From a virus, in IMG/VR virus record IMGVR_UViG_3300030117_002517, positions 1-28,469 of that record: a stretch of DNA of 28,469 nt, one strand, 5' to 3'. How positions within the stretch are numbered: position 1 is the stretch's first letter; each line of letters starts with the position of its first letter. Below, piece after piece: positions 9,109-28,469 of the stretch. Position numbers and translations under genes: made by a program. A model generated the notes under the pieces. It did no database searches. It had not been told where the DNA came from and saw nothing but the letters and a program-made list of their open reading frames with translations.

Positions 9109-12100
9109 ATGCCAGAGTTAAAGAGAAATTTTGCTCAGGGGAAAATGAATAAAGATCTTGATGAAAGATTACTTCCTCCTGGCGAATATAGAGATGCAAA
9201 TAATATTCAAGTATCAACATCAGATGGTTCTGATGTAGGTACTGTACAAACAATGCTTGGTAACACTAGATTTATAGGCTCTACAAAACTACCGGCAGAT
9301 TGTAAATGTGTTGGTGCAATTGCTGATGGAAAAAGTGATAATTTATATTGGTTAGTAAAAGGACCTGGTAAATATAGTACACAAGCATTAAAATACGATT
9401 TTATTCTTGAAGTAAATGTAGAGTATAATAAAGTTAAATATGTTGTCGTAGACAATTACCAAACAGTATTAACAACATCAGCAGCTACAATTAATGGTGC
9501 AACTTTAACATTCTCTAATGCAGCGGGTGTAAGAGCTGGTATGTATGCTGTTTTTAACGATACTGCTGATGATCCTCAAAGGTGGGAGGTATTATCTATA
9601 GACACAAACAATGTAGTTACTTTAGCACCATTAAATGGAGTTGCGATTTCTTTAAATGTAGCTTCTGGTGCAACTATTGTTTTTGAAGCGCCTAGAGTAT
9701 TAAACTTTTCTGGTGATATTATAACAGGAATAAATATAATAGAAGATAATCTTTTCTGGACAGATAATCAATCTGAACCTAAAAAAATAAATATTACAAG
9801 ATGTAAACTTGGTACGGGTAAAGCAACAAACGCGCCTGATACTAATATTTCTGGTGATATACCTACCCCAGCCGCATTACAAAATTCTCCTTTTAATGGG
9901 GCAAATTACAATATACATACTAGATTAGTATCTACACTAGACGATGCTATAGGACCGGAAGTTATAACTAACGCAGCTGGTACTAAAGCTGTGTTTTTAG
10001 AAGAACAACATATTACTGTTATTAGAAAAAATCCTGTAACGCCTTTGTATTTAGAAATGTCAAACACACAGACTGATAGATATAATCAAAATGGTGTTGC
10101 CAACAATATATTAACAACAATATCATCCACTAGATTTGTAGATAGTGATGGAGACCCTCTTGAAACTGGTGCTATAAAAACAAATGTATTTTTTACAACT
10201 GCTGTTGATTTTAGAATAGGAGATATTATAGTTGCAAAGTCACAAGCAAACCAAAGTAGTTATAGTGATTTTTCAGATTACGAAGTAAGAGCTGAAATAA
10301 CAGGCGTTCCTTCTCAACATCAACCTCCAAACACTATAATGCCAGGTGTAACTGGTGATGCTTATGAGCTTACAATATTAAGTGTTGTAGAAACTGCTTT
10401 AAACTCTGACGAGGTTTGGTCTGTAACTTTAGAGCAGAAAAAACCTTTATTTGAATTTAAATTTCCTAGATTTTCTTATAGATATAAATATGTAGATGGT
10501 GAATACTCTTGTTTTGCGCCTTGGTCTGAAGTTGCTTTTATGCCTGGTAATTTTGATTATTTGCCTAAACAAGCTTATAATCTAGGTATGAAAAATAATT
10601 TAAGATCTTTAACTTTAAAAAATTATATAGTTGAAGATTCTTTAAGACCTAGAGATGTTGTTGAAGTTGATATTTTATACAAAGAAAGTAACTCACCTTT
10701 ATGTTATACTGTAAAAACAATAAAACCTTCAGACGGAGATTTAGTATGGCCTAATACAAGTCAAGATCCTTATGAAAGAGGTAGATTAGAAATAGAAAGT
10801 GAAATTATACATGCTGTATTACCGTCTAACCAATTATTAAGACCTTGGGATAATGTACCAAGACACGCATTATCGCAAGAGGTAACAGGTAATAGGCTTG
10901 TTTACGGTAATTATAAACAAAATTACAACATAATAAGTGATGGTCAATTAATAAGACCTAATCTTGATGTTTCTTTAGTTAGCACAAATGTTAGTAATTT
11001 AATGGGTACAAAATCTGTAAAGACAATGCGTAATTATCAATTAGGTATTGTTTATGGTGATGAATATGGTAGAGAAACACCAGTATTAACTGATCCAGTT
11101 ACAGGTTCTATAAAAGTTGACGTTGAAGAAGCAACCAAAAGCAATAAACTTAAAGTTAAAATAAATTCTATAGCTCCTGATTGGGCTAAAACATGGAAGT
11201 TTTATGTAAAAGAAACTTCTAATGAATATTATAATATGGCTATGGATAGATGGTATGATGCTAAAGATGATTGTATTTGGCTTTCCTTTCCATCAGCAGA
11301 AAGAAATAAAATAGATGAAGAAACATATTTAATACTCAAGAAACAACATGATACTGATGTCGCTATAGAGAAAGAGGCAAGATATAAGGCAATAGCAATA
11401 TCAAATGATGCTCCAAAATATATTAAAAAGAAAAGAGTTTCTTTAGGTACAATTAACAATGCTACCCATAATAGTGTTGTAGATAATGTAATTGGTGATT
11501 CATCTAGTGGTTTCCCTTTTGTTAACACTAACTTTTTTACTGTAGTAGAATCAAAGGCAAATGATACTTGGGGTAATGATTTTTGGGCATATGATAATTT
11601 AGAAATTAAATTTAAATCTTCAACTGGAGATCAATCAAGATATTATGAAGTTATAAAAGCGGCGCCTAGTGGTAGTAATGAGTATAATATAACTATAAAA
11701 GAAAAGTTTGGCGATGATATGTTGTTTGCAACAACTGACGATCCTCAAACTTGGGCTAATAGATTAGGTGCTAGCGATACTAAAGTTCTTCAAGTAGAAA
11801 TGTTTTATGTAGAATACGAAGATAAACCAGAGTTTGACGGTAGATTTTTTGTAAAAATAAATAAAGATTTAGTCTTAAAGAAAAATTTATTAAAAGTGTC
11901 AGATCCAGATAACTACGTAATAACTGCATCTACAAAAATTCATTACATAAATACTTTTGAGGGTAGTACTGGTTCTGATGGTATTAATGGTGTGTTTTTA
12001 GGTGGTGATGGTACTGGCGGTACTCTTTCGGGCATACCTACACTTCCAATAGGTCAAAATTCACTCGGTGTAAGAATTTACTCGGACGGATCAACATCAC

Positions 12101-14646
12101 ACCATTGGGATCCCACATCATACACAGGTGGTAGTTTAGTTGATTTTTACGAAACTAATAATTATAATGCCGATTCACCTGGTAGGAAACAGGCTAGAAG
12201 ATTTTGGGAGGCCTTTTCAGCATTAAATAGAAATCATGATAAAGGTACTTGGTTTATAGATCAAGCTTATGTTAGAAGCGATTTTAAGGGTACTCCGTCT
12301 CGATACGCAGGATTTAAAGGTTGTGGAGACAATATACCTTATGATAATGGTATAGATTCTGGTTTTGGTGATAGTTCTGATGGTGGAGATATTTTTAATC
12401 ATCCTGAAGCTGGTCCATTAAATATATGGTTAGGCAAAGTGCAAGGTGAAGCTGATTTAACAAATCAAAGTGGTAGTGGTTATCATGCTGGTAGTAGAGG
12501 TATATACGCTGGTAATTACGCTATGGACATATCATTCTCGGGTATATGGCCTTATGGCGCTGATATAGGCAAAGAAGGAGTTATAAATAGAATACAAGAT
12601 GCTGGTATGTCAGAGTATGATCAAGATGTAGCTTTTGCAACAGCTCTTTTTCAAGAAGGCGCTAAGTTTAGATTTAAAAGTGATCCTGACTCAATAGTGT
12701 ATACTGTTTTATATGTTAGAGAATTATACGGTTTAAGAAACTATGATCCAAAAGAAGGTGATAAAGGTAATTGTAATGATGATGGTACTATTGATTCTCC
12801 AAACCATGCATATAATAAAAGACAAAGATGGACTATTGTTGTAGATAAAAAGTTTGGTAGTGGTCCTTCTAAATATTGGCCGTTGGATATAGCACACGAC
12901 GGTACTCAAGGACAAAATATTGAAGTTTTAGAACCATATAGTGAGCAAGGCGGTTATTCTAGTGAAAATCCAGCTATATGGGAAACAGAACCAAAAGAAG
13001 ATGTTGGACTTGATATATATTACGAAGCAACTCAAGCATACCCAATGGATATAGATTTTAAAACTAATGAACAATTTATACCTGTAGGTTGTGTTGTAAA
13101 ACACTTTGTTACTAACGAATGGGTTAATATTTACTACGATGGTAGTTCTGCAGATACCACTATTAAAGTACGAACTTACTCTGCAAGTGATCAAAAAGTA
13201 ACCTTAGATGGTGCTTCAGTTGCAATAGCAGTTAACACAAAACTTAGATTTGAACATCCTGATGGTGGTGCAGTTCATGCCTACACACAAACAGCTGTTT
13301 CAGCTGGAGATACTTCTATAATACTACATGGAAATAGCGATAACACTGTTCAAGCATACAGACCTCATAATCAAGATATAATTTTACCTTATTTTAATTG
13401 TTATTCTTTTGGTAATGGAGTTGAATCTGATAGAATAAGAGATGACTATAATCAAGTTAGAATTACTAATGGTGTAAAAGCATCTACGGTTTTAGCAGAA
13501 CAATATAAAGAAGAACACAGACCTAATGGTTTAATATTCTCAGGTATTTACAATAGCAATAGTGGTATAAATAGATTAAATCAATTTATACAAGCTGAGA
13601 AAATAACTAAAGATTTAAATACGAGACATGGTAGTATACAAAAACTTTATGCTAGAGATACCGATTTAATAACATTATGTGAGGATAAAGTTTTAAGAAT
13701 ATCAGCTAATAAAGATGCTTTATATAACGCTGATGGAAAACCACAACTTATATCATCTAATGTTGTTCTAGGACAAGCAGTTCCTTATGTTGGCGACTAT
13801 GGTATATCTAAAAACCCTGAATCTTTTGCTGCTGATAATTATAGATGTTATTTTACAGATAGACAAAGAGGGGCTGTGCTTAGATTATCAAGAGATGGTA
13901 TAACACCAATATCAGAACATGGTATGAGAACTTGGTTTAGAGATAATTTTGGTAAAGTTTATGTTAATCAAGCTATTGGTAGTTTTGATAAAGATAAAAA
14001 TACTTATAATTTAACTTTAAAAACAATAACTGGAAGAGGAGGTGATGATGAGGAAAATGTTAATTATACTCTTGCTTTTAAAGAATCTGTTAGAGGTTGG
14101 CAAAGTTTCCATAGTTATATACCAGAGTATGGTGAAAGTTGCAATAATAAATATTTTACCTTTAAAGATGGTTTCCCTTGGCAACATCATGTTAACACTA
14201 CAGCAAATAATTATTATGGAACACAGTATTATTCAGATATAACAGCAATATTTAACGACCAACCAGGAATGGTAAAAAGTTTTAATACTATTAGCTATGA
14301 AGGTACACAAACAAAAGTTGCTCAAAATTTAAGTGATGGTAACTATCATAATTTAACAGCTGTTGATGGTTGGTATCTTGATAGTTTTACTACAGACTTG
14401 CAAACGGGTACAGTTTCTGAATTCATAAATAAAGAAGGTAAATGGTTTAATTATTTAAAAGGAGAGACTACAACTTTAAGTAATTTAGATGGATTAGAGT
14501 TTTCTGTACAAGGAATAGGTAATCCTTCCGCAGTTACTCATGATGGTAGTAGTGATGGTTCTGGAGGTTCTTACAAATTATATGTTAATGACAGTTCTAC
14601 TGGTACTGATGGTACTGGTTGGGATGACGGTAATACTTATACATAA
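9109..14646 (+). CDS. Giant nozzle/muzzle-like tail protein (1845 aa)
   Basis: Very large virion protein that probably forms the distal short-tail tube. The N-terminus (NFAQGKMNKDLDERLLPPGE, then YRDANNIQVSTSDGSDVGTV) is a signature I associate with the tail stabilization or muzzle proteins of Bacteroidota podoviruses. A second conserved-looking block is FYVKETSNEYYNMAMDRWYD followed by a WLSFPSAERNKID segment, roughly residues 697-740. A third lies at about 1475-1637 (KLYARDTDLI, YGISKNPESFA, YFTDRQRGAVLRLSRDGITP) and reads like a beta-propeller. Between them are several small beta modules, such as the one at about 125-200 with GVRAGMYAVF. Residues 950-1150 are Gly/Asp/Ser-rich, and the last 40 residues are a Gly/Ser/Asp/Thr tail. 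No transmembrane segment is visible. T7 gp12 is the functional analogue I infer; direct homology cannot be shown here. Confidence 0.7.
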   Translation: MPELKRNFAQGKMNKDLDERLLPPGEYRDANNIQVSTSDGSDVGTVQTMLGNTRFIGSTKLPADCKCVGAIADGKSDNLYWLVKGPGKYSTQALKYDFILEVNVEYNKVKYVVVDNYQTVLTTSAATINGATLTFSNAAGVRAGMYAVFNDTADDPQRWEVLSIDTNNVVTLAPLNGVAISLNVASGATIVFEAPRVLNFSGDIITGINIIEDNLFWTDNQSEPKKINITRCKLGTGKATNAPDTNISGDIPTPAALQNSPFNGANYNIHTRLVSTLDDAIGPEVITNAAGTKAVFLEEQHITVIRKNPVTPLYLEMSNTQTDRYNQNGVANNILTTISSTRFVDSDGDPLETGAIKTNVFFTTAVDFRIGDIIVAKSQANQSSYSDFSDYEVRAEITGVPSQHQPPNTIMPGVTGDAYELTILSVVETALNSDEVWSVTLEQKKPLFEFKFPRFSYRYKYVDGEYSCFAPWSEVAFMPGNFDYLPKQAYNLGMKNNLRSLTLKNYIVEDSLRPRDVVEVDILYKESNSPLCYTVKTIKPSDGDLVWPNTSQDPYERGRLEIESEIIHAVLPSNQLLRPWDNVPRHALSQEVTGNRLVYGNYKQNYNIISDGQLIRPNLDVSLVSTNVSNLMGTKSVKTMRNYQLGIVYGDEYGRETPVLTDPVTGSIKVDVEEATKSNKLKVKINSIAPDWAKTWKFYVKETSNEYYNMAMDRWYDAKDDCIWLSFPSAERNKIDEETYLILKKQHDTDVAIEKEARYKAIAISNDAPKYIKKKRVSLGTINNATHNSVVDNVIGDSSSGFPFVNTNFFTVVESKANDTWGNDFWAYDNLEIKFKSSTGDQSRYYEVIKAAPSGSNEYNITIKEKFGDDMLFATTDDPQTWANRLGASDTKVLQVEMFYVEYEDKPEFDGRFFVKINKDLVLKKNLLKVSDPDNYVITASTKIHYINTFEGSTGSDGINGVFLGGDGTGGTLSGIPTLPIGQNSLGVRIYSDGSTSHHWDPTSYTGGSLVDFYETNNYNADSPGRKQARRFWEAFSALNRNHDKGTWFIDQAYVRSDFKGTPSRYAGFKGCGDNIPYDNGIDSGFGDSSDGGDIFNHPEAGPLNIWLGKVQGEADLTNQSGSGYHAGSRGIYAGNYAMDISFSGIWPYGADIGKEGVINRIQDAGMSEYDQDVAFATALFQEGAKFRFKSDPDSIVYTVLYVRELYGLRNYDPKEGDKGNCNDDGTIDSPNHAYNKRQRWTIVVDKKFGSGPSKYWPLDIAHDGTQGQNIEVLEPYSEQGGYSSENPAIWETEPKEDVGLDIYYEATQAYPMDIDFKTNEQFIPVGCVVKHFVTNEWVNIYYDGSSADTTIKVRTYSASDQKVTLDGASVAIAVNTKLRFEHPDGGAVHAYTQTAVSAGDTSIILHGNSDNTVQAYRPHNQDIILPYFNCYSFGNGVESDRIRDDYNQVRITNGVKASTVLAEQYKEEHRPNGLIFSGIYNSNSGINRLNQFIQAEKITKDLNTRHGSIQKLYARDTDLITLCEDKVLRISANKDALYNADGKPQLISSNVVLGQAVPYVGDYGISKNPESFAADNYRCYFTDRQRGAVLRLSRDGITPISEHGMRTWFRDNFGKVYVNQAIGSFDKDKNTYNLTLKTITGRGGDDEENVNYTLAFKESVRGWQSFHSYIPEYGESCNNKYFTFKDGFPWQHHVNTTANNYYGTQYYSDITAIFNDQPGMVKSFNTISYEGTQTKVAQNLSDGNYHNLTAVDGWYLDSFTTDLQTGTVSEFINKEGKWFNYLKGETTTLSNLDGLEFSVQGIGNPSAVTHDGSSDGSGGSYKLYVNDSSTGTDGTGWDDGNTYT

Positions 14647-14650
14647 AAAT

Positions 14651-16570
14651 ATGGCAATAAACGATTATTCTTTTTTATCAACAACAATAAGCAGTGCTTA
14701 CGCGCAGACTGGTGGTAGTGCTGTGTCTGGTACATATTTTAGTTTTACTATAACACCGACTGGTGGTAATCCAGAAGACCCAGCTGTAATAGCTGCTGAT
14801 GATTTTAAAATAGGTAATGCTGCAGAAAATCCTCCAGCATCAAATATTTGGTGGGGTGGAAATGTCGATTCAACAGTTCAAAAGGTTGAATTTGTAGACA
14901 CTGGAACGCCTTACGCCATATCTAATACAGTAGAGGCTAGAATATATTTGTTTAGTGGTACAACAATGCCAAATAGCGATTTAACTATATTAGTAGATGT
15001 TGATTATACAGCACCTACATTTGGTGATGAGGATGATAGAGCCAGTGCTGTAGGTAGACCTTTTTGTATAAGACTTTACACACCTTCTTCTACAAATGTT
15101 TGTGATGGAAGTGGAGGGACAAATACTGCTTATACTGGTATATCTACTTCAGCTATAAATACATCTTATACCGTTTCTTCAGTAAACGCGGAAGGCACAG
15201 GCGCAAATCCTTATTGTTCTGAAGGTTTTCATGAATATAAAATTAGTGGTACAGTTCCCGAAGGTCAAACAACAACTATATTTGGCCAGTCATTTGTTGC
15301 TGATACTGGTTATTATTTTCCAGACCCAGGTATCACCGCTAATTTAACTGTAAATACACAAGGTTTAGATTTTAGCGATGCTTATACTTTACATCATATA
15401 ATAACTAGAAATGCAGACAATCAAATAACTACATATAGATTCGAAGTAAATTACACTCCACCAGATCCATCTATAGAAGATTTAACTGGTACTGATTCAG
15501 CAAATATTACTAAATTTGCTTCTTTACGTCACGAAATGATTTACTCTAACTATACGCCAGTACAAATAACAAGTAGTAATAGTGGTACAGAGCAAACATT
15601 ACAAGCGGTTACTCTTGATGGTCAAACTGGTGTCGGAACCGCTACAGATGGTAATGCTGGGCCTACGCCTTTAGATGCCGACGGAGAAACTAGATCTATT
15701 TATGTTTATGGTAGTGATTTTGCAGGTTATTATTTAACCGTAAAACAAGTTGTTGGTGGAACAACTAAAACGTTAGCTTTTGCAGAACCACATCCTGGTC
15801 AAGGCAAAGAAGCTAGCAATACTTTTACAGCTAGTTCTACAAATTCAGGTGTTGTACAATTAAATATACAAAACACAAAAGGTGGTAAAGCTACATTTTA
15901 TCCAAGTGGTAGACCTTATGCTGTAGATTATGCAAGAGAAAATGAAAACTCAAAAGAAGGTTACCGTGTTCCAGTTGCTTATCATGAATATAAAGTACAT
16001 TTCCCGCCTTGTTCAGCTGTAACATATTATGATATATACGTAACAAAAAGTGATGATAATGAAAGTGGTAATAGCGACGCTACAAAGGAAAACGTAACAA
16101 CAGGATATGGTATATCAGGAGCTGGGTCTGGTGCTACAGCAACATATCCAATAAGGGTCTATCAATATGACGATCCTGAAATATCGATAGCACCAACAAC
16201 AAATGCAGCTTCTAGCTATGACACTATGCCATCTGCTGCTACTAAAACAACTATTAGGGCAAATACAAAACTTGTAGATGGGAAATCTACTGGTACCACA
16301 ACTAGTGCTGGGTATATAGCTCTTAGTTTTGCAATTGGCGCAGCTTCTGACAAAACACTGTCTTTGTCAAGGCAACCTATAGCATCTGATTTTTCAGTAA
16401 TAAGTGGTGGTAATGGTTTATCTATATTTTATGAAAGTTTAGCGGCCGCTGTTGTTGGATCGGGTGACAACAATACTGTAAACGTTACTGGCGCGGCTTA
16501 TATAGAAACAGCGCCTGTAGATGACACTGTAATTAACTTATTAACACAAAACTTTATAACAGCAGAATAA
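14651..16570 (+). CDS. Beta-rich tail fibre/appendage-like protein (639 aa)
   Basis: Probable receptor-binding or fibre-type virion protein. I place the start at ATG 14651, 4 bases after the upstream stop and behind an A-rich leader. The reading frame stays open upstream to 14540, but that extension overlaps the end of the 1845-aa gene and is an improbable Met/Val/Leu-only string made by the shifted GGT/GAT codons. The protein is Thr/Ser/Gly/Ala-rich with many short beta-strand patterns and little helix, with Cys at several sites, as in extended fibres built of repeated beta domains. No signal peptide, collagen repeat or pectate-lyase-like catalytic motif is visible. Position after the tail tube gene supports an external appendage. 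Other options are a baseplate or decoration protein. Confidence 0.6.
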   Translation: MAINDYSFLSTTISSAYAQTGGSAVSGTYFSFTITPTGGNPEDPAVIAADDFKIGNAAENPPASNIWWGGNVDSTVQKVEFVDTGTPYAISNTVEARIYLFSGTTMPNSDLTILVDVDYTAPTFGDEDDRASAVGRPFCIRLYTPSSTNVCDGSGGTNTAYTGISTSAINTSYTVSSVNAEGTGANPYCSEGFHEYKISGTVPEGQTTTIFGQSFVADTGYYFPDPGITANLTVNTQGLDFSDAYTLHHIITRNADNQITTYRFEVNYTPPDPSIEDLTGTDSANITKFASLRHEMIYSNYTPVQITSSNSGTEQTLQAVTLDGQTGVGTATDGNAGPTPLDADGETRSIYVYGSDFAGYYLTVKQVVGGTTKTLAFAEPHPGQGKEASNTFTASSTNSGVVQLNIQNTKGGKATFYPSGRPYAVDYARENENSKEGYRVPVAYHEYKVHFPPCSAVTYYDIYVTKSDDNESGNSDATKENVTTGYGISGAGSGATATYPIRVYQYDDPEISIAPTTNAASSYDTMPSAATKTTIRANTKLVDGKSTGTTTSAGYIALSFAIGAASDKTLSLSRQPIASDFSVISGGNGLSIFYESLAAAVVGSGDNNTVNVTGAAYIETAPVDDTVINLLTQNFITAE

Positions 16571-16571
16571 T

Positions 16572-16934
16572 ATGGCGGTAATAACTTTAACATTCGCAAA
16601 TAAAATAAACACATCTGTACAGGTTGGTGATACTGCTTATTATACTTTAGCACCATCTACTAGTGGTAGTTTTAAAACTTCAAATCAGTCTGATATAGTA
16701 GAAATAGGTGCAATTACAGCTATAAACAACACCACAAATGTTATAACTTGTAGCACAACATTAGCTTATGCTGATAGACCTACTACGAGTAGTTTTATAT
16801 TGTTTAGTAAAAATAACGAAGTAAACTTAAGTGCAGTGCTTGGTTATTATGGTGAGGTAAAGTTTAAAAATAGCTCTACGATTAAATCTGAGCTGTTTAG
16901 CATAGGTACCGATATGTTTGTTAGTAGTAAATAA
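16572..16934 (+). CDS. Small beta-rich virion-associated protein (120 aa)
   Basis: I cannot name the family. Nearly the whole chain is predicted beta strand by eye: NTSVQVGDTAYYTLAPSTSG near the N-terminus, alternating Ile/Thr/Val through the middle, then FILFSKNNEVNLSAVLGYYG (about 76-95) and a closing EVKFKNSSTIKSELFSIGTD segment. The pattern fits a small beta-sandwich, such as a fibre cap, chaperone-like or decoration domain. It starts 1 base after the stop of the fibre-like gene, so the two are probably translated together and may act together. No signal peptide or membrane helix is present. The 43 bases after it are A/T-rich and hold only a weak hairpin. Confidence 0.7.
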   Translation: MAVITLTFANKINTSVQVGDTAYYTLAPSTSGSFKTSNQSDIVEIGAITAINNTTNVITCSTTLAYADRPTTSSFILFSKNNEVNLSAVLGYYGEVKFKNSSTIKSELFSIGTDMFVSSK

Positions 16935-19784: not shown

Positions 19785-22700
19785 ATGAATAAAGAGTATT
19801 TACAAAACGTACATAGCATGTTAGGCGTAACGCACGACTTTGATGTTTGGACAAGTAAAATTAAAACAAACGATAATTACTTGTCTAAGCTGCATAGTGA
19901 GCTTGGCGTGACTCATGATTTTGATACTTGGAAGCAAAAAGTTATTGGATCTACTACACCATCTGTACCTAGTGATTATAAACCTAAAGAAGACTTTAGT
20001 GATTGGGAAGTTGTAACTAATGTAGATGGTTTAAGTGTTAGTATATTTAGAAATCCAGAGGGTGATCTTGTAAAAGATGAAGATGTGCCAAGGGAGTTGC
20101 GAGATTTGCATAAAAAGTGGCAAACAAAAGGTCAAGATGATCCAATAAGTTTTGGGCAGTTTTTAGTAGATACAAAAGGCACTGAGGAAGGTAAAGATAT
20201 TATAAAAACAATAGATTCTTATAAATTAGTAGGTACAGATTTAGAAAATAAAAGAAAAGAAAACAAATCAGAAGTAGAAAGGTATAAAGAGCTTGTTAAA
20301 AAAAGAGCTGATCTTAATCTTAGAGTTCAAAAAGCTGGTATTGTTGAAGAAGAAGCTCCTATTGTAAACTTTGCTGGCTTAAGAATGATAGATCCAAGTG
20401 CTGGGGAAGTTACTGGAAATATAATTAGTCAAAGTGATAAAAAATCAAAATCAGAAAAAGCAAGTGGTGCAGAAATAGAACGTCAAAATAAAACAGAAGA
20501 TAGAGAAAGTTTAATAGCTCAAATTGAAAACTCTAGAGTTAAAAGAATATATAACGAAGTTTTATCTACAAAAAGCGATAATGTTATTACTGGTAGTGAT
20601 GAATTTTGGGATTTAGTTACTGAAAAGATGACTGATGAAGATGCTCAAGCCCATTTTAAAAAACTTATTGATGAGGCTATAGAAAAAGACCAAGGTATAT
20701 TTCAACTTTTTATATCAAAATCTCAACAAGAACAAATTAGTAAAACTGAAGAGCAACTTCCAAAAATACAAAAAGCATTAAAAAATAATATAAAATCTAC
20801 ACAATATAGTTATAATAATATAATAAGATTAGAAAAAGAATTAACTGATTTTCAAAATGATTATAATGAATTTGTAGCACCTAAAGCAACTCAATATAAA
20901 AAAGAATTTGAAGATATAGCTTTAAAAATAGAAAATTTAGAAAAAGATAAAGAAGCTTTAGGTGATGTTAATGAGTATTCAGATATAAGTTTAATTAACC
21001 AATGGAATGCTATAAATGATAAACAAAATGTTTTAATAACTCAACAACAAGGTATTCAAGTTAAACAAGAAAAATTACTTGCTGACAATGCTGACATGAT
21101 TTCTTCTTATAAAAAAGCAAATGAAGATATAAAAACTTGGGTTAAAGATTATAAAGATAGAATTGTTATTAGTGATGAACTTATACAAAACGAAAAAGAT
21201 TTATTAATATATCATAATGCTATAAAAAGAAACAACCACAATGTAGTTGCTGGATCAGCTTGGTTATTAAATGGTGCTATAAGTTTAACTAGTGGTGTAG
21301 AAGGTATGGTAAATGCCGTTAGAGAGTTACCGGAAGATTTGCTTTTTGAATATTATGATAATGATGTTGAAAAAATGCCACCTATAGTAAAACAACTAAA
21401 GGGGTATGATATGTTTACAGATGCCATGAGAATGGCTGGTAAGGAAAAGGTAAACAATTTTATGAATAACATTAATAATAGTGTTGAAGAGGCCGTGGAT
21501 TTTGAAGAAATTGATGATGTTGCTGATTTTGGTATGTTTGCGCTTCATGGCTTAGCAAATTTTGCCCCGCAAGTAGCTTTAATGGCAACTACCGGTGGCG
21601 CTTCAATATATGTTATGGGTGCTAGTGCTTTTGGTAACAAATATGATGAAATGGAAAGGTCAAATGCTTTTGGAGGAACAGAGTATACTTTAGGCGAAAA
21701 GTGGTTAGCTTCTACTATAACTGGTGGTTCTGAAGTTTTATCAGAAAAAATAACATATGGTATATTTAAAGGTTATAATAATGCTGTAAAAAGCACAATA
21801 AGAGATAAAGGTTTCAAAGGTCTTATGCAAAACTTTAGTATAGGCGGAACTTTAAAGGCTGGAACAAATACGGTTACAGAGGGTGGGTCTGAGGTTTTAG
21901 CACAAATAGGTGGTAATTTTGCAGATATAATAATTGGTAAAGACGTTGATATAATGGGTGGTGTCAACGGTGCTTTTGTCACAGGTTTAATTATGGAAAG
22001 AGCAATGGCAATGCCTGTGTTGTATAACAAAATATCACCTGTGTTTATGGGTAAAGATTATACAGAGCAAATGGCCAGTCTTAACATAAAGCAAAACGAC
22101 ATTGGTAAAAAAATAATAAACGAGCTTACCTCTGAATCTGCTAGAGAAAAACTTACAACGCAGTGGCTTAAAATACAGGAGAAGAAAGAAACGTTGATGG
22201 CTAAGAATATTGAAAACATCAACATGATGAAGGGTGAAGAGAAAAATAGACTTGTAAATATAGAAAACAATTTATTTAGAATAAGAAATGAAATAAGATC
22301 TATAGAGCAAGACGGTACAATAAAACAATCAGATAAAGACGCATTAATAGAAGATCTTAATAGTGAACAACAAGAGCTAAGTACTGAAAAAAATAAAATA
22401 ATACAAAAATACGAAAGCGACGAAACAAGAGAGGCTAGATATAAAAGATTTGAAGAACAGACTGCTAAAATAAAAGCTAATATAGAAAGATCTAACAAGC
22501 GTAGAAAAAGCCCCTATATATCTGAAAGATTCCAATCAGATAATAAGTATACAGAATTTGAAACAACACAAGAAGGTTTAGATTATTTTAATAATAAAAA
22601 AATGGAGCAAGACGCTCAGTTAGAAGCTGAGATAAGAGCTATGAGGGAAGTTTTAAATAGCGACGTTGCTTCTGAGCGTGATAAAAGAATCGCCGCTCAA

Positions 22701-25700
22701 AACATTAAGTTTCTCCAACAACAAAGAGCAAATACAACTCAAGAAGCTAAATCTGACGCTAAGTCTTATGGTTTTATTATACAAAATGCAGATGGTAGTT
22801 TTGAAGTTGTTGTCAACAAAGAAAACGCACTAGCTAAAGATGGTAATATTAATGTTGCTGCTCATGAATTTCTACATGCTGTTCTTTACAAATCACTTCA
22901 AGCAAATACTAAATTACAATCAAAAATTGGAAATGCTGTAGTTGATTATGTAGAGAAAAATAAAGGTGGTCTTAATCAAAGCTTTATAAATAAAATGACA
23001 CCTTATGCTTACGCTGACAATGCTGGTGAAGAAATTATTACTGTAATGTCAGAATCTATAATGGATGGATCTTTACAGTTTAATGATGGGTTTTTTACTA
23101 AAATAGGAGATCTTATAAGACAAAACTTACAAAGACTTGGTTGGAAAAAAATTAAATTTAATACTGGTAGAGATGTATACAACTTTATAAAAGATTACAA
23201 TGCTTCTATAGAAAAAAACTACAACAGTGAAGCTATAGACCGTTTGATGGATTTTGGAGCAGAAGGTTCTTTAGTTCAATTAGACAAAAAAGTTGATAAT
23301 GCACCTAAGCAAAATATTCAAAAATCAACTCTTGATGGTTTTCAAAATGAAATAATAATTGAGGAGTTAGGATTAAAAGATGAAACTGCTGCTATTGTAA
23401 AAAGAAATGAAGAAATAGAAAAGAAAATATTAGAAGAAGGCTTAAAAGATTCTGAAGGTAATATAATGGCATCTATATCTCTTGCTAACGCTTTGGTTAG
23501 AAATAATATGCCTAGAGCTTTTGCTTTAGCTAGAAAAGCAGCTAACAAAGGTAAAGATCTAACACTAGAAGATGGTTTACGTATGGACGACGTAGCAGAG
23601 TGGTTTAGTCAATTTAATGAAAAGTTAGTAAAGTTATCTAGAACTTATAGGGCTAGGAAAAACGGTAAAGAAGTTCCGTTTGGTGCTTATATGAATGCTA
23701 TTTTACCTAAAAAATATTCTGGTATATTAGAGAGTATGAAAGGTAAAATTGAAACAGCTAGAATAGAAGAAGAAACTGTAGCTAAAAAAGTTGCTAAAAA
23801 AATAGCACCTAAAATAGATGATGGTAGAGAAGAGTTAGAAGGTACTGTAATAGCTTTGGAGCAAATGGGTCATGGTGATATTATGCCAAAACTTCAAAAT
23901 ATATATAACGAAAATAAAAATCAAGTAAAAAAACTAAGCACTTATAAAGATGTTAAAAATGCTATTTATAGGGCTAAAAAAGAAGGGCCTTTTTATCAAG
24001 CTTTAGTAGAAGTTGCTGAGATATTCACAAATCAAAACTTTACAGCAGAAGAACTTGCCAAGCGCATACTTAACAAGCAAGACTTAACTAAAGAAATGCG
24101 TAAAGCAATCCAAGATAAAATACTTAAACATTCTCCTGAAATGATTACGATGGTACCAGACGGTACTACTGTAGGTGGTGATGCTACCGGCATTGCAAAC
24201 ACTAAACTAGGCGTATGGTATACTAAACAAGGTAGATCAAAATTTACAGATACAGGCACTGGTAAAGGTTTAGCGGTACAACAGAAACAAGGTTTAAACA
24301 ATGAGACTTTTAGACAGCCTTTTGGTATAGCTATAAAAGGTCAAAGAGTTACTGACAAAAGTGTAGATGGAGCTTTAAGGGAGTGGGTTATGCAAGTAGC
24401 TACTTTAGCTATGAACCAAGCATCCAGACAGGCAGATCCAAAGAATATTCCTTTATTAAAAATCAAAGAAGGTAAAAGTCGCGTGCAGTTCAGTACAAAA
24501 CAAAGGGCTAAAAAACTTGAAGAGCAAGCTAGTTATAAAACAAACAAACTATTAGCACCAAAAGAAACTGTAACAATAGAAAACGAAGATAAAACTGGTA
24601 AAATAGAAGTTAAAATTATAACAAGAAGAGATTTAGAACAATACCAAGATGAGAAAAATGAAATAACTTGGGAAGAGTTTTATATGAACCAAATACTAGA
24701 TTTTCTTGACGAATTTCCTCAATATTATGAGGTTATGGCAACTGGTTTAACTGGTGGTATAAAAAAAGCTGCGTTTTTTAATATACCTTATTTTAGAGAT
24801 AAAATTGAAAAATATGCTAAAAAAAGTGGTAGAGAAAATATTGTAGAAAAAATAGATAATACAAAGCAGATAAAACCTTCAAGACTTCTTTACCATAAAA
24901 ACAGCATGTTTAAAGGTCTAAAAAATATAAACCTTTCAAAAGATGAAGGTAAAATAGAGTTTTTAATACAGTTTTTTAAAGATATTGCTAAACATGGTAA
25001 GGGGGAAGAAATTTTTCAAGAGTTATTAACTCACCTTGGTTTTGACCAAAGTAACTTTATGAGACACGCGGGTACATTACTTGCTTTTCCTGTTAACGCT
25101 AAAGGTAAAGAAGTAACTAATGAAATAGGTGTAGAAGAGCATGATCCGCAGATGGAAATGGCTAGAATTTTATTTGCTGCAGCGCGTGATGGTAATATAG
25201 AAGATGCTATTAAGCTTTTGAGGTTTAGTTATTCACAAAGCTCTTTAAGAAAGCAAGATGATCCTGGTGGTGATCTTAGACAGTCTAGAGGTAAAGACTT
25301 TTTTGAAAAAGTAGTACCTAGAGTTTTAAATAATGAGCTAGACTTTTTACCTGATGGATTTGGTGCTATATATAGATTTATGAAAGCAGGTGTAAACCCT
25401 AATGCTTATAAATTAGTAAAAGAAAAACAAACTATAGCAGAATACTTTGGTGTTGATAACTTAAGCGTTAAACAAGCGCAACAAGCTATAATTGATGTTT
25501 TTGAAGGCAAGCAAGATATAAATGTTTTGCGTATGCAGTCAGAGATTAAGTATAGTAGAGATATAGATAGTAATCATATGTTTAGTAGGGCTGTAAACAA
25601 GTCTAGAGTGGTTAATGACGCCAAAGGTATTACCGTATTAGACTTTGATGATACGTTAGCTACAACTAAATCTTTAGTTAAATTTACTAGACCAGATGGA

Positions 25701-28202
25701 ACCACTGGAACTTTAAACGCTGAAGAATACGCTAGTACATATGAAGATTTATTAGACCAAGGTTTTACATTTGACTTTTCAGATTTTAATAAAGTTGTAA
25801 AAGGTAAGATAGCACCGTTATTTCAAAAAGCATTAAAACTACAAGGTAAGTTTGGTCCTGAAAACATGTTTGTGTTAACAGCTAGACCACCACAAGCTGC
25901 TAAAGCTATATTTGATTTCTTAAAAGCTAATGGTTTAAATATACCAATGAAAAATATTACTGGTTTAGCTAATTCTACAGCTGAAGCAAAAGCATTGTGG
26001 GTAGCTGATAAAGTTGGTGAAGGCTTTAATGATTTTTATTTTGCTGATGATGCGTTACAAAATGTACAAGCTGTTAAAAATATGCTAGATCAGTTTGATG
26101 TTAAGTCGAAAATACAGCAAGCTAAAACCCAGTTTAGTAAACCTGAAAATTTAGATAAGTCTTTTAATGATATACTAGAAAACATAACTGGTATTGAATC
26201 TAAAAAAAGATTTTCAGCTATTAAAGCTAGAAAACGTGGGGAGAAGAAAGGTAGATTTAGATTTTTTATACCACCGTCGCACGAAGACTTTGTAGGATTA
26301 CTATATAACTTCATAGGTAAAGGTAAAGAGGGTAATGCTCATAGAGATTTCTTTGAACAAGCTTTAATTAGACCATTAAATAGAGCTTATAGAGAATTAA
26401 ATACAGCTAAACAGTCTATAGCTAATGATTACAAATCTTTAAATAAACAATTTGAAGATATTAAAAAGAAATTAACTAAAAAAACCCCAGATGGTGATTT
26501 TTCTTATCAAGATGCTATAAGAATTTACTTATGGGACAAACATGGTTATAAAATACCTGGTTTAAGCAAAACTGATCAACAAGGTTTGGTTGATTTAGTT
26601 AAATCTGATAGCAAATTACAAGCGTATGCAGATGCAATAAACACTATATCAAAACGTGATGATTATGTTAGTCCTGCAGAAAGTTGGGAAGCTGGAGATA
26701 TAAGAACAGATTTAGATGATGCGACTGGTAGAATTGGAAGAGCAGAATTTTTTGCTGAATTTTTTGAAAATGCTGATATAATATTTTCACAAGAAAATTT
26801 AAACAAAATAGAGGCTGTATATGGAGCTAATATGGTTAGTGCTCTTAAAGATATATTGTATAGAACTAAAACCGGTAGAAATAGACCTAGTGGTCAAAAC
26901 AAATTAGTTAATCAGTTTTTGAACTATTTAAATGGATCTGTAGCTTCAACTATGTTCTTTAACATACGTTCCGCCGTGCTACAACAAATGTCTATGGTTA
27001 ATTTTATTAACTATTCTGATAATAATATACTTTCTGCCGCTAAAGCTTTTGCTAATCAAAAACAATATTGGACTGATTGGGCAACTATATTCAATTCTAA
27101 TTTTATGAAGCAAAGACGTGGTGGTATTAAGACAGATGTTAATGGAGCTGAGTTAGCGGCAACAGTTAAAGATGCTAAAAACCCAATAAATGCTGCAATT
27201 AAAAAATTATTAGAATTAGGATTTTTACCAACACAAATTGGGGATAATATAGCTATAGCTACTGGAGGTTCTACGTTTTATAGAAATAGAATTAATACAT
27301 ACTTAAAAGAAGGTATGACTCAAAAAGAAGCTGAATCAAAAGCATGGACTGATTTTCAAGTATTAGCAGAAGCTACGCAACAATCGGCAAGACCAGATAT
27401 GGTTTCGCAACAGCAGGCATCTCCACTTGGTAAAGTTATACTTGCTTTCCAAAACGTAACTTCTCAATTTAATAGACTAGGTAAGAAGGCATTTTTAGAT
27501 ATTAAAAATAGAAGAATAACACCTGGTAATCCAACTCAATTACAAAGTGATATATCTAATTTATCTAGAATAGCTTATTACTTCGCAATACAAAACTTAA
27601 TATTCTACACCTTACAATCAGCGTTATTTATGGCTATGTTTGATGATAACGAAGAAGATGAAAAATGGTTAAAGAAAAAAGAAAGAATGGTCAATGGTAG
27701 TATTGATTCTGTTTTAAGGGGTACTGGTGTTTGGGGAGCAGCCGTTGCTACTTTAAAAAATATGGCTATTAAATGGCACGAGCAAAGAGATAAAGGTTGG
27801 AATAAAGATGAGAGTGCAGTATTAATGGAAATGCTAAACCTTTCACCTCCACTTGGTATTAAAGCAAGAAAAATGGTTAATGCTGAAAAAACTCTTAATT
27901 ATAATAAAAAGACTATAGACGAGATGAGTGCTTTTGATATTGACAATCCAATATGGTCAGCTGTAACAAGTTATACAGAGGCAACAACTAACGTTCCTCT
28001 TAATAGACTGTATAATAAGACAATAAACGTAAGAGAATCTTTAGACAATCAACACAATTCTTTACAAAGAGTTTTAATGTTTAGTGGTTGGAGTAAGTGG
28101 AATCTTGGAATCGAAGACATTGAAAGATCTAAAGGTAAACAAAAATTTACTAAAAGAAAAAGTACAAGGAAAAAAACAGGATCAAAATTTAAAGCAAAAT
28201 AA
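19785..28202 (+). CDS. Giant polyvalent ejection-like protein (2805 aa)
   Basis: A multi-domain chain taking up 30% of the window. In order: a duplicated motif at residues 5-26 and 32-53 sharing LGVTHDFD; long coiled-coil regions (about 230-500 and 780-960) around apolar Gly/Ala-rich segments (588-626 and 720-750) that could meet a membrane. Next is a zincin-like motif HEFLH at 1027-1031 with E1082/E1083 as the candidate third ligand; a Gly-rich block at 1458-1515 (VPDGTTVGGDATGIANTKLG); and an EHDP block at H1786. A HAD-type phosphatase follows, with D1953/D1955 in DFDDTLA, T2032 in VLTARP, K2069, and D2088-D2089 in FADDA. Last is a C-terminal helical region (about 2380-2560, FFNIRSAVLQQMSMVNFINY) resembling the LPD38 polyvalent domain. 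The C-terminus is very basic. The gene lies 6 bases after the second ejection gene, so co-injection is likely. Enzyme activities are predicted from motifs only. Confidence 0.8.
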   Translation: MNKEYLQNVHSMLGVTHDFDVWTSKIKTNDNYLSKLHSELGVTHDFDTWKQKVIGSTTPSVPSDYKPKEDFSDWEVVTNVDGLSVSIFRNPEGDLVKDEDVPRELRDLHKKWQTKGQDDPISFGQFLVDTKGTEEGKDIIKTIDSYKLVGTDLENKRKENKSEVERYKELVKKRADLNLRVQKAGIVEEEAPIVNFAGLRMIDPSAGEVTGNIISQSDKKSKSEKASGAEIERQNKTEDRESLIAQIENSRVKRIYNEVLSTKSDNVITGSDEFWDLVTEKMTDEDAQAHFKKLIDEAIEKDQGIFQLFISKSQQEQISKTEEQLPKIQKALKNNIKSTQYSYNNIIRLEKELTDFQNDYNEFVAPKATQYKKEFEDIALKIENLEKDKEALGDVNEYSDISLINQWNAINDKQNVLITQQQGIQVKQEKLLADNADMISSYKKANEDIKTWVKDYKDRIVISDELIQNEKDLLIYHNAIKRNNHNVVAGSAWLLNGAISLTSGVEGMVNAVRELPEDLLFEYYDNDVEKMPPIVKQLKGYDMFTDAMRMAGKEKVNNFMNNINNSVEEAVDFEEIDDVADFGMFALHGLANFAPQVALMATTGGASIYVMGASAFGNKYDEMERSNAFGGTEYTLGEKWLASTITGGSEVLSEKITYGIFKGYNNAVKSTIRDKGFKGLMQNFSIGGTLKAGTNTVTEGGSEVLAQIGGNFADIIIGKDVDIMGGVNGAFVTGLIMERAMAMPVLYNKISPVFMGKDYTEQMASLNIKQNDIGKKIINELTSESAREKLTTQWLKIQEKKETLMAKNIENINMMKGEEKNRLVNIENNLFRIRNEIRSIEQDGTIKQSDKDALIEDLNSEQQELSTEKNKIIQKYESDETREARYKRFEEQTAKIKANIERSNKRRKSPYISERFQSDNKYTEFETTQEGLDYFNNKKMEQDAQLEAEIRAMREVLNSDVASERDKRIAAQNIKFLQQQRANTTQEAKSDAKSYGFIIQNADGSFEVVVNKENALAKDGNINVAAHEFLHAVLYKSLQANTKLQSKIGNAVVDYVEKNKGGLNQSFINKMTPYAYADNAGEEIITVMSESIMDGSLQFNDGFFTKIGDLIRQNLQRLGWKKIKFNTGRDVYNFIKDYNASIEKNYNSEAIDRLMDFGAEGSLVQLDKKVDNAPKQNIQKSTLDGFQNEIIIEELGLKDETAAIVKRNEEIEKKILEEGLKDSEGNIMASISLANALVRNNMPRAFALARKAANKGKDLTLEDGLRMDDVAEWFSQFNEKLVKLSRTYRARKNGKEVPFGAYMNAILPKKYSGILESMKGKIETARIEEETVAKKVAKKIAPKIDDGREELEGTVIALEQMGHGDIMPKLQNIYNENKNQVKKLSTYKDVKNAIYRAKKEGPFYQALVEVAEIFTNQNFTAEELAKRILNKQDLTKEMRKAIQDKILKHSPEMITMVPDGTTVGGDATGIANTKLGVWYTKQGRSKFTDTGTGKGLAVQQKQGLNNETFRQPFGIAIKGQRVTDKSVDGALREWVMQVATLAMNQASRQADPKNIPLLKIKEGKSRVQFSTKQRAKKLEEQASYKTNKLLAPKETVTIENEDKTGKIEVKIITRRDLEQYQDEKNEITWEEFYMNQILDFLDEFPQYYEVMATGLTGGIKKAAFFNIPYFRDKIEKYAKKSGRENIVEKIDNTKQIKPSRLLYHKNSMFKGLKNINLSKDEGKIEFLIQFFKDIAKHGKGEEIFQELLTHLGFDQSNFMRHAGTLLAFPVNAKGKEVTNEIGVEEHDPQMEMARILFAAARDGNIEDAIKLLRFSYSQSSLRKQDDPGGDLRQSRGKDFFEKVVPRVLNNELDFLPDGFGAIYRFMKAGVNPNAYKLVKEKQTIAEYFGVDNLSVKQAQQAIIDVFEGKQDINVLRMQSEIKYSRDIDSNHMFSRAVNKSRVVNDAKGITVLDFDDTLATTKSLVKFTRPDGTTGTLNAEEYASTYEDLLDQGFTFDFSDFNKVVKGKIAPLFQKALKLQGKFGPENMFVLTARPPQAAKAIFDFLKANGLNIPMKNITGLANSTAEAKALWVADKVGEGFNDFYFADDALQNVQAVKNMLDQFDVKSKIQQAKTQFSKPENLDKSFNDILENITGIESKKRFSAIKARKRGEKKGRFRFFIPPSHEDFVGLLYNFIGKGKEGNAHRDFFEQALIRPLNRAYRELNTAKQSIANDYKSLNKQFEDIKKKLTKKTPDGDFSYQDAIRIYLWDKHGYKIPGLSKTDQQGLVDLVKSDSKLQAYADAINTISKRDDYVSPAESWEAGDIRTDLDDATGRIGRAEFFAEFFENADIIFSQENLNKIEAVYGANMVSALKDILYRTKTGRNRPSGQNKLVNQFLNYLNGSVASTMFFNIRSAVLQQMSMVNFINYSDNNILSAAKAFANQKQYWTDWATIFNSNFMKQRRGGIKTDVNGAELAATVKDAKNPINAAIKKLLELGFLPTQIGDNIAIATGGSTFYRNRINTYLKEGMTQKEAESKAWTDFQVLAEATQQSARPDMVSQQQASPLGKVILAFQNVTSQFNRLGKKAFLDIKNRRITPGNPTQLQSDISNLSRIAYYFAIQNLIFYTLQSALFMAMFDDNEEDEKWLKKKERMVNGSIDSVLRGTGVWGAAVATLKNMAIKWHEQRDKGWNKDESAVLMEMLNLSPPLGIKARKMVNAEKTLNYNKKTIDEMSAFDIDNPIWSAVTSYTEATTNVPLNRLYNKTINVRESLDNQHNSLQRVLMFSGWSKWNLGIEDIERSKGKQKFTKRKSTRKKTGSKFKAK
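19797..19943 (+). repeat. Tandem 27-residue repeat at the N-terminus of the giant protein
   Basis: Two copies begin at Y5 and Y32. Both contain a tyrosine-led helix, the identical LGVTHDFD core, a Trp two residues later and a Lys-rich close. Positions between copies differ at synonymous and nonsynonymous sites, so the duplication is old and kept at protein level. Such a paired motif could be an anchoring site to portal, neck or core proteins. Confidence 0.85.
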
Positions 28203-28469
28203 ATGAAAAAACTAATTACATTACTATTAATTATACTAGTTTCTTGTGTTACGCCAAAAGATTGTTGTTCACAAATAAACTTTAAAAAGTTATTTAAATT
28301 TTCTACATTTTATGCGGCTGCTAATGGTGGTACATCTATATCAGATGTTGAAACATTTTCTGTTACAAATGGTTTAGAAACAGCTACAATTAAAACTCCT
28401 TATGATTATAACTTATCATTAGGTATACGTAAGATAGCAAGATTTGGATATGAGAATAGAGCACAGACG
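28203..28469 (+). CDS. Lipoprotein of unknown function, 3' end missing
   Basis: The frame begins at the ATG directly abutting the stop of the giant protein gene (no gap) and remains open for 89 codons to the window edge. Residues 1-14 are a short lipoprotein signal: two Lys, then LITLLLIILVS, ending in the lipobox L12-V13-S14-C15. Cleavage before C15 by signal peptidase II would give a lipid-anchored protein. A C21-C22 pair follows. The visible mature part (FKKLFKFSTFYAAANGGTSI, then PYDYNLSLGIRKIARFGYEN) is beta-strand-like and starts a domain that continues beyond the edge. I recall similar starts from uncharacterised marine phage proteins but cannot name a family. A role at the host envelope, such as superinfection exclusion, is a possibility with no direct evidence. 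An outer-membrane beta-barrel-like fold is another. Confidence 0.78.
   Translation, partial: MKKLITLLLIILVSCVTPKDCCSQINFKKLFKFSTFYAAANGGTSISDVETFSVTNGLETATIKTPYDYNLSLGIRKIARFGYENRAQT

Follow-up and report, generated by a model that had tools for sequence, protein, structure and literature searches.

What would a phosphatase domain do within a giant protein encoded among the structural genes of a virus, and on which substrate would it act? The question is raised by an open reading frame (ORF) of 2805 residues (19785–28202, + strand) in a 28,469-base viral record, the whole of which was analysed and is called the window here. A sequence-only reading of this DNA had noticed in the ORF a complete set of HAD phosphatase motifs, and had predicted a real phosphatase on an injected chain. 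The reading preferred here, with a probability of about one half (0.48), is that the domain is a predicted active phosphatase of the 3'-phosphate end-healing type, carried by a polyvalent protein that would be packaged and injected with the DNA.

Motifs and conservation of the HAD domain

The HAD domain covers residues 1945–2115 approximately (25617–26129, + strand), as delimited by motifs, conservation and a structural model. Motif I, DFDDTLA (25641–25661), contains the nucleophile D1953 and D1955, motif II is T2032-A-R2034 (25878–25886, with T2032 at 25878–25880), motif III is K2069 (25989–25991), and motif IV is the pair D2088-D2089 (26046–26051), all on the + strand. These residues and their normal order are those that had been read from the sequence; the distance between motifs I and II, given then as roughly 70 residues, is 79 when measured. 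A loose pattern of the four motifs has one match in the real protein, at position 1951, and also fits 52 of 20,000 shuffled versions, and for this reason the pattern alone is modest evidence and conservation is the stronger.

Relatives of the domain are common in viral contigs. A profile search confirmed at least 467, of which 80 were kept, in a set that is biased for motif I because one of the two patterns used was DFDDTLA itself; a search whose patterns leave out the catalytic residues confirmed 149, and 80 of these were kept. In a search through the genomes of 84,980 species of bacteria and archaea, eight relatives (L162–L169) were found, every one of them on a MAG contig, and these are likely phage contigs in mixed bins that provide no evidence of hosts. 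The labels of the MAGs are Maricaulis, Bacteroidetes, Ilumatobacteraceae, Woesearchaeota, Flavobacteriaceae and Aliivibrio. In 50,697 phage records, a tblastn search with the window domain found nothing at E up to 1.

Within 134 distinct domain sequences, window included, T2032, R2034, K2069, D2088, D2089 and N2093 are invariant. D1953 and D1955 are likewise present in all 134. Five rows with large inserts seemed to lack one or the other, but this loss was rejected as misalignment at the inserts, all five having DFDDTLA before the insert. Conservation of these two aspartates across homologs had been proposed as a check on the sequence-only reading, and no loss was found. Variation in motif I (DFDDT, DADDT, DLDGT, DFDET, DFDHT) leaves the catalytic positions in place. 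Outside the set of 134, one contig (L172/L346) has lost 11 residues, including an Asp of motif IV.

Conservation was also followed in a set that is independent of the choice by HAD, made of 64 loci fetched by the C-terminal 558 residues of the giant protein. The HAD domain was found in 59 of them. Among the others, L273 and L284 begin at contig ends, the match of L316 spans 41 residues only, and L311 and L312 keep the C-terminal part with the HAD truly absent and other sequence at its place. The DxDxT motif is present in all 57 readable domains of this set (49 with DFDDT or DLDDT and eight with DFDET), and TAR, K and DD in 58 of 58, with TAR and DD located by pattern. In a pattern-free alignment of the same loci, a few rows mismatch at the catalytic positions; an insert, truncation at one end or the missing domain accounts for each of them. 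The median dN/dS was 0.097 (about 0.1) over 200 pairs with at least 80% DNA identity. The HAD domain is complete and under strong purifying selection, and the earlier prediction of a real phosphatase is strongly supported by this degree of sequence conservation.

Fold and profile matches

A Rossmann-like fold had been named as a further check, and the model of the window domain (pLDDT 75, built from 17 sequences) predicts a HAD, Rossmann-like order of elements. A flap hairpin follows motif I, with strands at 1964–1968 and 1974–1978, and the combination of core and hairpin is also seen in the model of a relative with a nested domain (pLDDT 88). In VIA, HAD structures lead the matches of the window model, the top ones being tied (Nir2, whose domain is lipid-binding, Z 8.0; Pnkp1, 7.6; T4 PNKP, 7.5); all matches of this model have Z of 8.0 or below, and a Z under 8 may mean a common arrangement. 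Foldseek gave no rows at E 0.001 or better for the window model. Its top two rows, both FakB1, are not HAD proteins and were rejected.

The HAD profile search suggested with the sequence-only reading was productive with PHROGs but gave weak results with Pfam. The Pfam matches of the window domain are below cut-off (PF12710, E 0.14; DUF2608, E 5e-4), NCBIfam has no match on the window protein, and PDB sequence searches with the domain or its alignments returned chance-level rows only. None of the Pfam models for the Swiss-army-knife kind of HAD phosphatase matched, even with E allowed up to 1. Among PHROGs the best match is to phrog_415, annotated as 'polynucleotide kinase' (E 9.6e-4 across 180 residues); the phosphatase half of T4 Pnk matches this profile at E 8e-25. 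Among the relatives, phrog_415 was matched by L141 (E 2.7e-4) and marginally by L281 (E 0.055), but the nested domain of L148 had no listed match to it. With hhalign, the comparison against ten HADs of the PNKP type gave a probability of 93.4 (E 2.6e-7) across motifs II–IV only, against 4.5 for the one control, a single 117-aa phage HAD protein.

The signature of T4-type PNKPs consists of DxDGT, an R in the motif I loop, R..D..K and DD(R), and what is found in the window family is DFDDT, TAR, K and DDA. The positions of T4 R176, D254 and R279 (the R of DDR), which presumably are important residues of T4 Pnk, differ or are not conserved in the window family. On these motifs the window HAD is not a canonical PNKP member; it would act like a T4-type PNKP, yet is not filed there because the signature of that clade is absent.

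A kinase nested in the flap hairpin

The tip of the flap hairpin lies at residues 1969–1973 approximately (25689–25703, + strand). A kinase-profile search confirmed 110 relatives, of which 80 loci were kept, and 76 of these 80, a set retrieved by way of the insert itself, have a P-loop kinase nested inside the HAD at the hairpin tip. This count is the sum of 68 loci accepted by strict rules, three of which (L364, L401, L408) are cut before motif IV, and eight added on inspection. Among these eight, TAR and DD are visible in six, L352 is truncated past TAR, and L346 has lost motif IV. In two of the 80 loci (L388, L389) the kinase is in tandem, immediately after the HAD. L407 has it apart from the HAD, about 950 residues before a motif I in the same ORF, and for L395 no HAD motif was found in the stretch examined. 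Among the C-terminus-selected loci the kinase is present in five of the 57 readable domains, and two further cut loci are on kinase-bearing contigs. The window HAD is without a kinase, the P-loop pattern having no match in the window protein.

The nested model places the kinase between the two strands of the flap, and its first match in Foldseek is T4 polynucleotide kinase, aligned across both domains. The small cap expected by the sequence-only reading is recognizable in the flap hairpin plus helices, but in relatives the tip of this hairpin bears a whole kinase. No published description of this kinase-phosphatase topology, with a kinase nested in a phosphatase flap, was found in the literature searched, which did not include PMC5062991. 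Mapped on a tree of 233 HAD cores, of which 76 are nested, the label 'nested' takes six changes, at least three of which are forced by starred branches, and gains or losses of the kinase have therefore probably occurred at least twice; the tree was made by a quick method that leaves 99 of 230 inner branches open, and its rows were picked by motif patterns, so that conservation is partly built in.

One contig has an ART-like insert at the hairpin tip (ART-PolyVal, E 0.0013, below cut-off), and a search for other carriers returned only its own contig. In L292 and L296 (L214) an insert domain lies immediately behind the HAD, and in L296/L214 it is followed by a repeat of the last helix of the HAD. 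A second insertion site behind the HAD is likely, given that the tandem kinase is at this place in L388 and L389. The computations show that whole domains have been inserted at the flap hairpin in relatives, and that the insert is mostly a P-loop kinase resembling polynucleotide kinases.

Known systems and the probable substrate

T4 Pnkp (pseT) and bacterial Pnkp1 consist of a 5'-kinase and a HAD 3'-phosphatase. The window family is like them in its HAD core, with DxDxT, the R of motif II, K and DD, and the nested relatives are like them also in that the HAD is paired with a P-loop kinase that shares their kinase fold. The order is different, given that the kinase stands in front in T4 Pnkp and Pnkp1 and here either interrupts the flap hairpin or follows the HAD. 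Moreover, the HAD belongs here to a giant protein, and the window copy is without the kinase. Nucleic-acid 3' ends are favoured as the substrate class because of the PNKP-like fold (tied with Nir2), the match to phrog_415, and the kinase nested in or adjacent to the HAD of relatives. From the models and alignments, 3' DNA ends or RNA would be the best-supported class. This was also the guess made from the sequence, which stands to that extent, with the qualification that the fold matches of the window domain itself are weak.

A different substrate would be small nucleotides or a nucleotide defence signal, which the HAD would dephosphorylate so as to break host signalling, the kinase-bearing relatives then being a side branch. 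The small flap, in place of a large cap, would admit many substrates, most of the C-terminus-selected relatives are without the kinase, and enzymes against nucleotides within injected proteins are a proposed theme (PMC7824862). The same paper names the Swiss-army-knife HAD phosphatases of phage RNA repair, which resemble the window domain as phage HADs that mostly lack a kinase and differ from it in that they tend to stand alone. Nonetheless, the recurrent pairing with a polynucleotide-kinase-like domain, both nested and in tandem, and a best PHROG that is the profile matched by the T4 Pnk phosphatase make a nucleotide substrate unlikely.

The identity of the kinase bears on a further proposal, in which the HAD is paired with a zeta-toxin-like kinase acting on a sugar nucleotide or small metabolite, and the two set the phosphorylation of that metabolite with no healing of ends. 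The kinase of L148 exceeds the Pfam cut-offs for both Zeta_toxin (E 1.1e-7) and AAA_33 (E 1.3e-8), the sequence search lists PezT and zeta toxin as weak matches, and zeta toxin 1gvn is matched by the nested model in VIA at Z 14.6. However, ranks 1–5 of the same VIA search are structures of Clostridium polynucleotide kinase, at Z 17.0–17.6, the match to phrog_505, polynucleotide kinase, has an E of 2.2e-7, and the Foldseek alignment to T4 Pnk extends over both domains of the nested model. We regard this proposal as rather improbable.

The giant protein and its delivery

The + strand of the window carries a structural gene block in the order terminase end, portal, head proteins, muzzle-type tail protein and then the giant ORF. 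The portal (1338–3749, + strand) matches phrog_6547 at E 3e-149 and has 53% identity to the portal of MW202828; the closest portals in phage records are those of a Caudoviricetes (53%) and of Maribacter phage Panino (52%), and 86 of the 87 records matching the portal are named for Flavobacterium, Cellulophaga, Tenacibaculum or Maribacter phages. The muzzle-type protein (9109–14646, + strand; 1845 aa) matches Pfam crAss_MUZ_C over cut-off at residues 1699–1784 (E 7.6e-11). An ORF of 676 aa at 14540–16570 shares its first 107 bases with the end of the muzzle ORF. In the elemo phage, the sequences that match the muzzle C-terminus and the next ORF of the window (120 aa, 16572–16934) are contiguous, and for this reason the gene at 14540–16570 seems to have been inserted in the muzzle gene.

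Four phages, MW202828, elemo, Panino and Gundel, all have a giant gene downstream of a muzzle-type gene; from portal to muzzle the gene order of MW202828 and elemo matches that of the window, and Panino and Gundel match in part. Within the part of these giants that was read, HEXXH is present in three of the four and the HAD motif I pattern in none. Gundel's is the only one of the four with a BLAST match to the window giant, the best piece being residues 450–744 (E 1e-12).

In the window giant, a zincin-like metallopeptidase motif, HEFLH, is found at residues 1027–1031 (22863–22877, + strand), and its H, E and H together with a downstream E are invariant in the 15 giant relatives chosen for alignment. 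Pfam recognizes little in these 15, with AAA_33 and Zeta_toxin in one member each and DUF5763 in two. A tandem repeat is present in the N-terminal part, at 19797–19931 of the window (YLQNVHSMLGVTHDFDVW / YLSKLHSELGVTHDFDTW). The C-terminal part, residues 2251–2805 (26535–28199, + strand), is conserved. In 70 closed ORFs the distance of the HAD from the C-terminus, taken from motif I, varies from 841 to 1303 residues with a median of 864, and the part before motif I has 1196 to 2524 residues, start codons not being set.

Identity to the window in 70 HAD-selected relatives is 85% in the HAD, 61–67% behind it and 25–35% elsewhere where alignable, values biased towards the HAD, which was the part used to find these proteins; position counts in these 70 likewise come from rows chosen via motif patterns, and conservation there is partly by construction. 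With the reverse bias, the 58 C-terminus-selected proteins have 74% in the HAD versus 67% in the C-terminus, with the HAD higher in 38 of 58. As judged from these identities, the HAD is the best-conserved part of the giant protein and the front part is highly variable.

Polyvalent proteins are giant proteins of mobile elements that unite several domains with effector or peptidase roles in one chain, and the window protein combines the zincin HEXXH with the HAD, relatives having kinase or ART-like domains in addition. The polyvalent proteins of PMC5512222 are likewise giant multidomain phage proteins with a zincin motif and a variable N-terminal part, and the ART-like insert of one relative (below cut-off) adds to the likeness. 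The sequence-only reading had called a phosphatase on an injected chain unexpected, which is softened by this known theme of multi-enzyme injected proteins; in the text of that paper that was searched, however, the words 'phosphatase', 'haloacid' and 'polynucleotide' are all absent.

That the giant protein is packaged and injected with the DNA is inferred from gene order only. The crassvirus cargo proteins of PMC10172136, of 154–277 kDa, are alike in being giant proteins encoded downstream of a muzzle-type protein; these were detected in virions via mass spectrometry. Alternatively, the giant protein might stay in the producing cell, where the HAD would serve, for example, assembly or late RNA or DNA metabolism. 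No virion proteomics for this giant was found in the literature, the 'structural protein' labels in Gundel and elemo are annotation, and 'mass spectrometry' does not occur in the text of the Gundel paper that was searched. Furthermore, the giant is not simply the last gene, given that a further ORF comes after it in the window and two genes and the portal come after it in Gundel. The ORF in the window (28203–28469) begins directly past the stop codon of the giant, has a lipoprotein-like start and leaves the window edge. The position of the giant in the structural block, downstream of a crAss-type muzzle protein, the virion cargo of crassviruses, and the invariant zincin motif, typical of polyvalent proteins, nevertheless make it improbable that the protein remains behind. 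A catalytically dead HAD, retained as a fold or binding module, would fit the loss of part of motif IV in one relative (L172/L346) but is highly improbable, given that the catalytic positions are kept 134 times in 134, even where neighbouring residues change.

Proposed mechanism and significance

According to the end-healing reading, the HAD would be a Mg-dependent phosphatase that takes 3'-phosphates off nucleic-acid ends. D1953 would presumably form the phospho-aspartate, with D1955 as general acid/base, and we assume that the phosphate would be held by T2032/R2034 and K2069, and the metal bound by D2088-D2089. Where relatives have a nested or tandem kinase, 5'-OH ends would also be phosphorylated, which would make the chain a one-chain end-healing enzyme. 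The giant protein would be packaged and enter the cell alongside the DNA, and ends cut by host nucleases, whether in RNA such as cleaved tRNA or in DNA, could be healed before phage gene expression.

Sealing of the healed ends would need a ligase, and an ATP-dependent DNA-ligase domain is present in the contigs of some relatives. This domain, PF01068, is over cut-off in four of 20 nested contigs, two of which (L184 and L185) are near-identical phages, and in four of 16 un-nested contigs; there is no firm association with the nested kinase in these contigs, which are mostly fragments. RNA ligase PF09414 was found in none of the 20 nested contigs, and RtcB was over cut-off in none of them, with two sub-threshold rows. 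The giant ORF of the L081 contig (G024:C1:18126-18638) has a weak DNA-ligase-like match (E 2.9e-4, below cut-off).

We tentatively propose, as one possibility, that the family makes up a third, separate lineage among the end-healing HAD phosphatases of phages, residing in virion cargo, with the flap as an exchangeable socket for a kinase or ART-like domain and with repair delivered ahead of phage expression. If true, a 3'-phosphatase becomes a nested kinase-phosphatase on a single chain once a 5'-polynucleotide kinase is inserted. The end-healing enzyme of T4 is made once infection has begun; a pre-made enzyme borne by the particle could act before host nucleases stop the infection.
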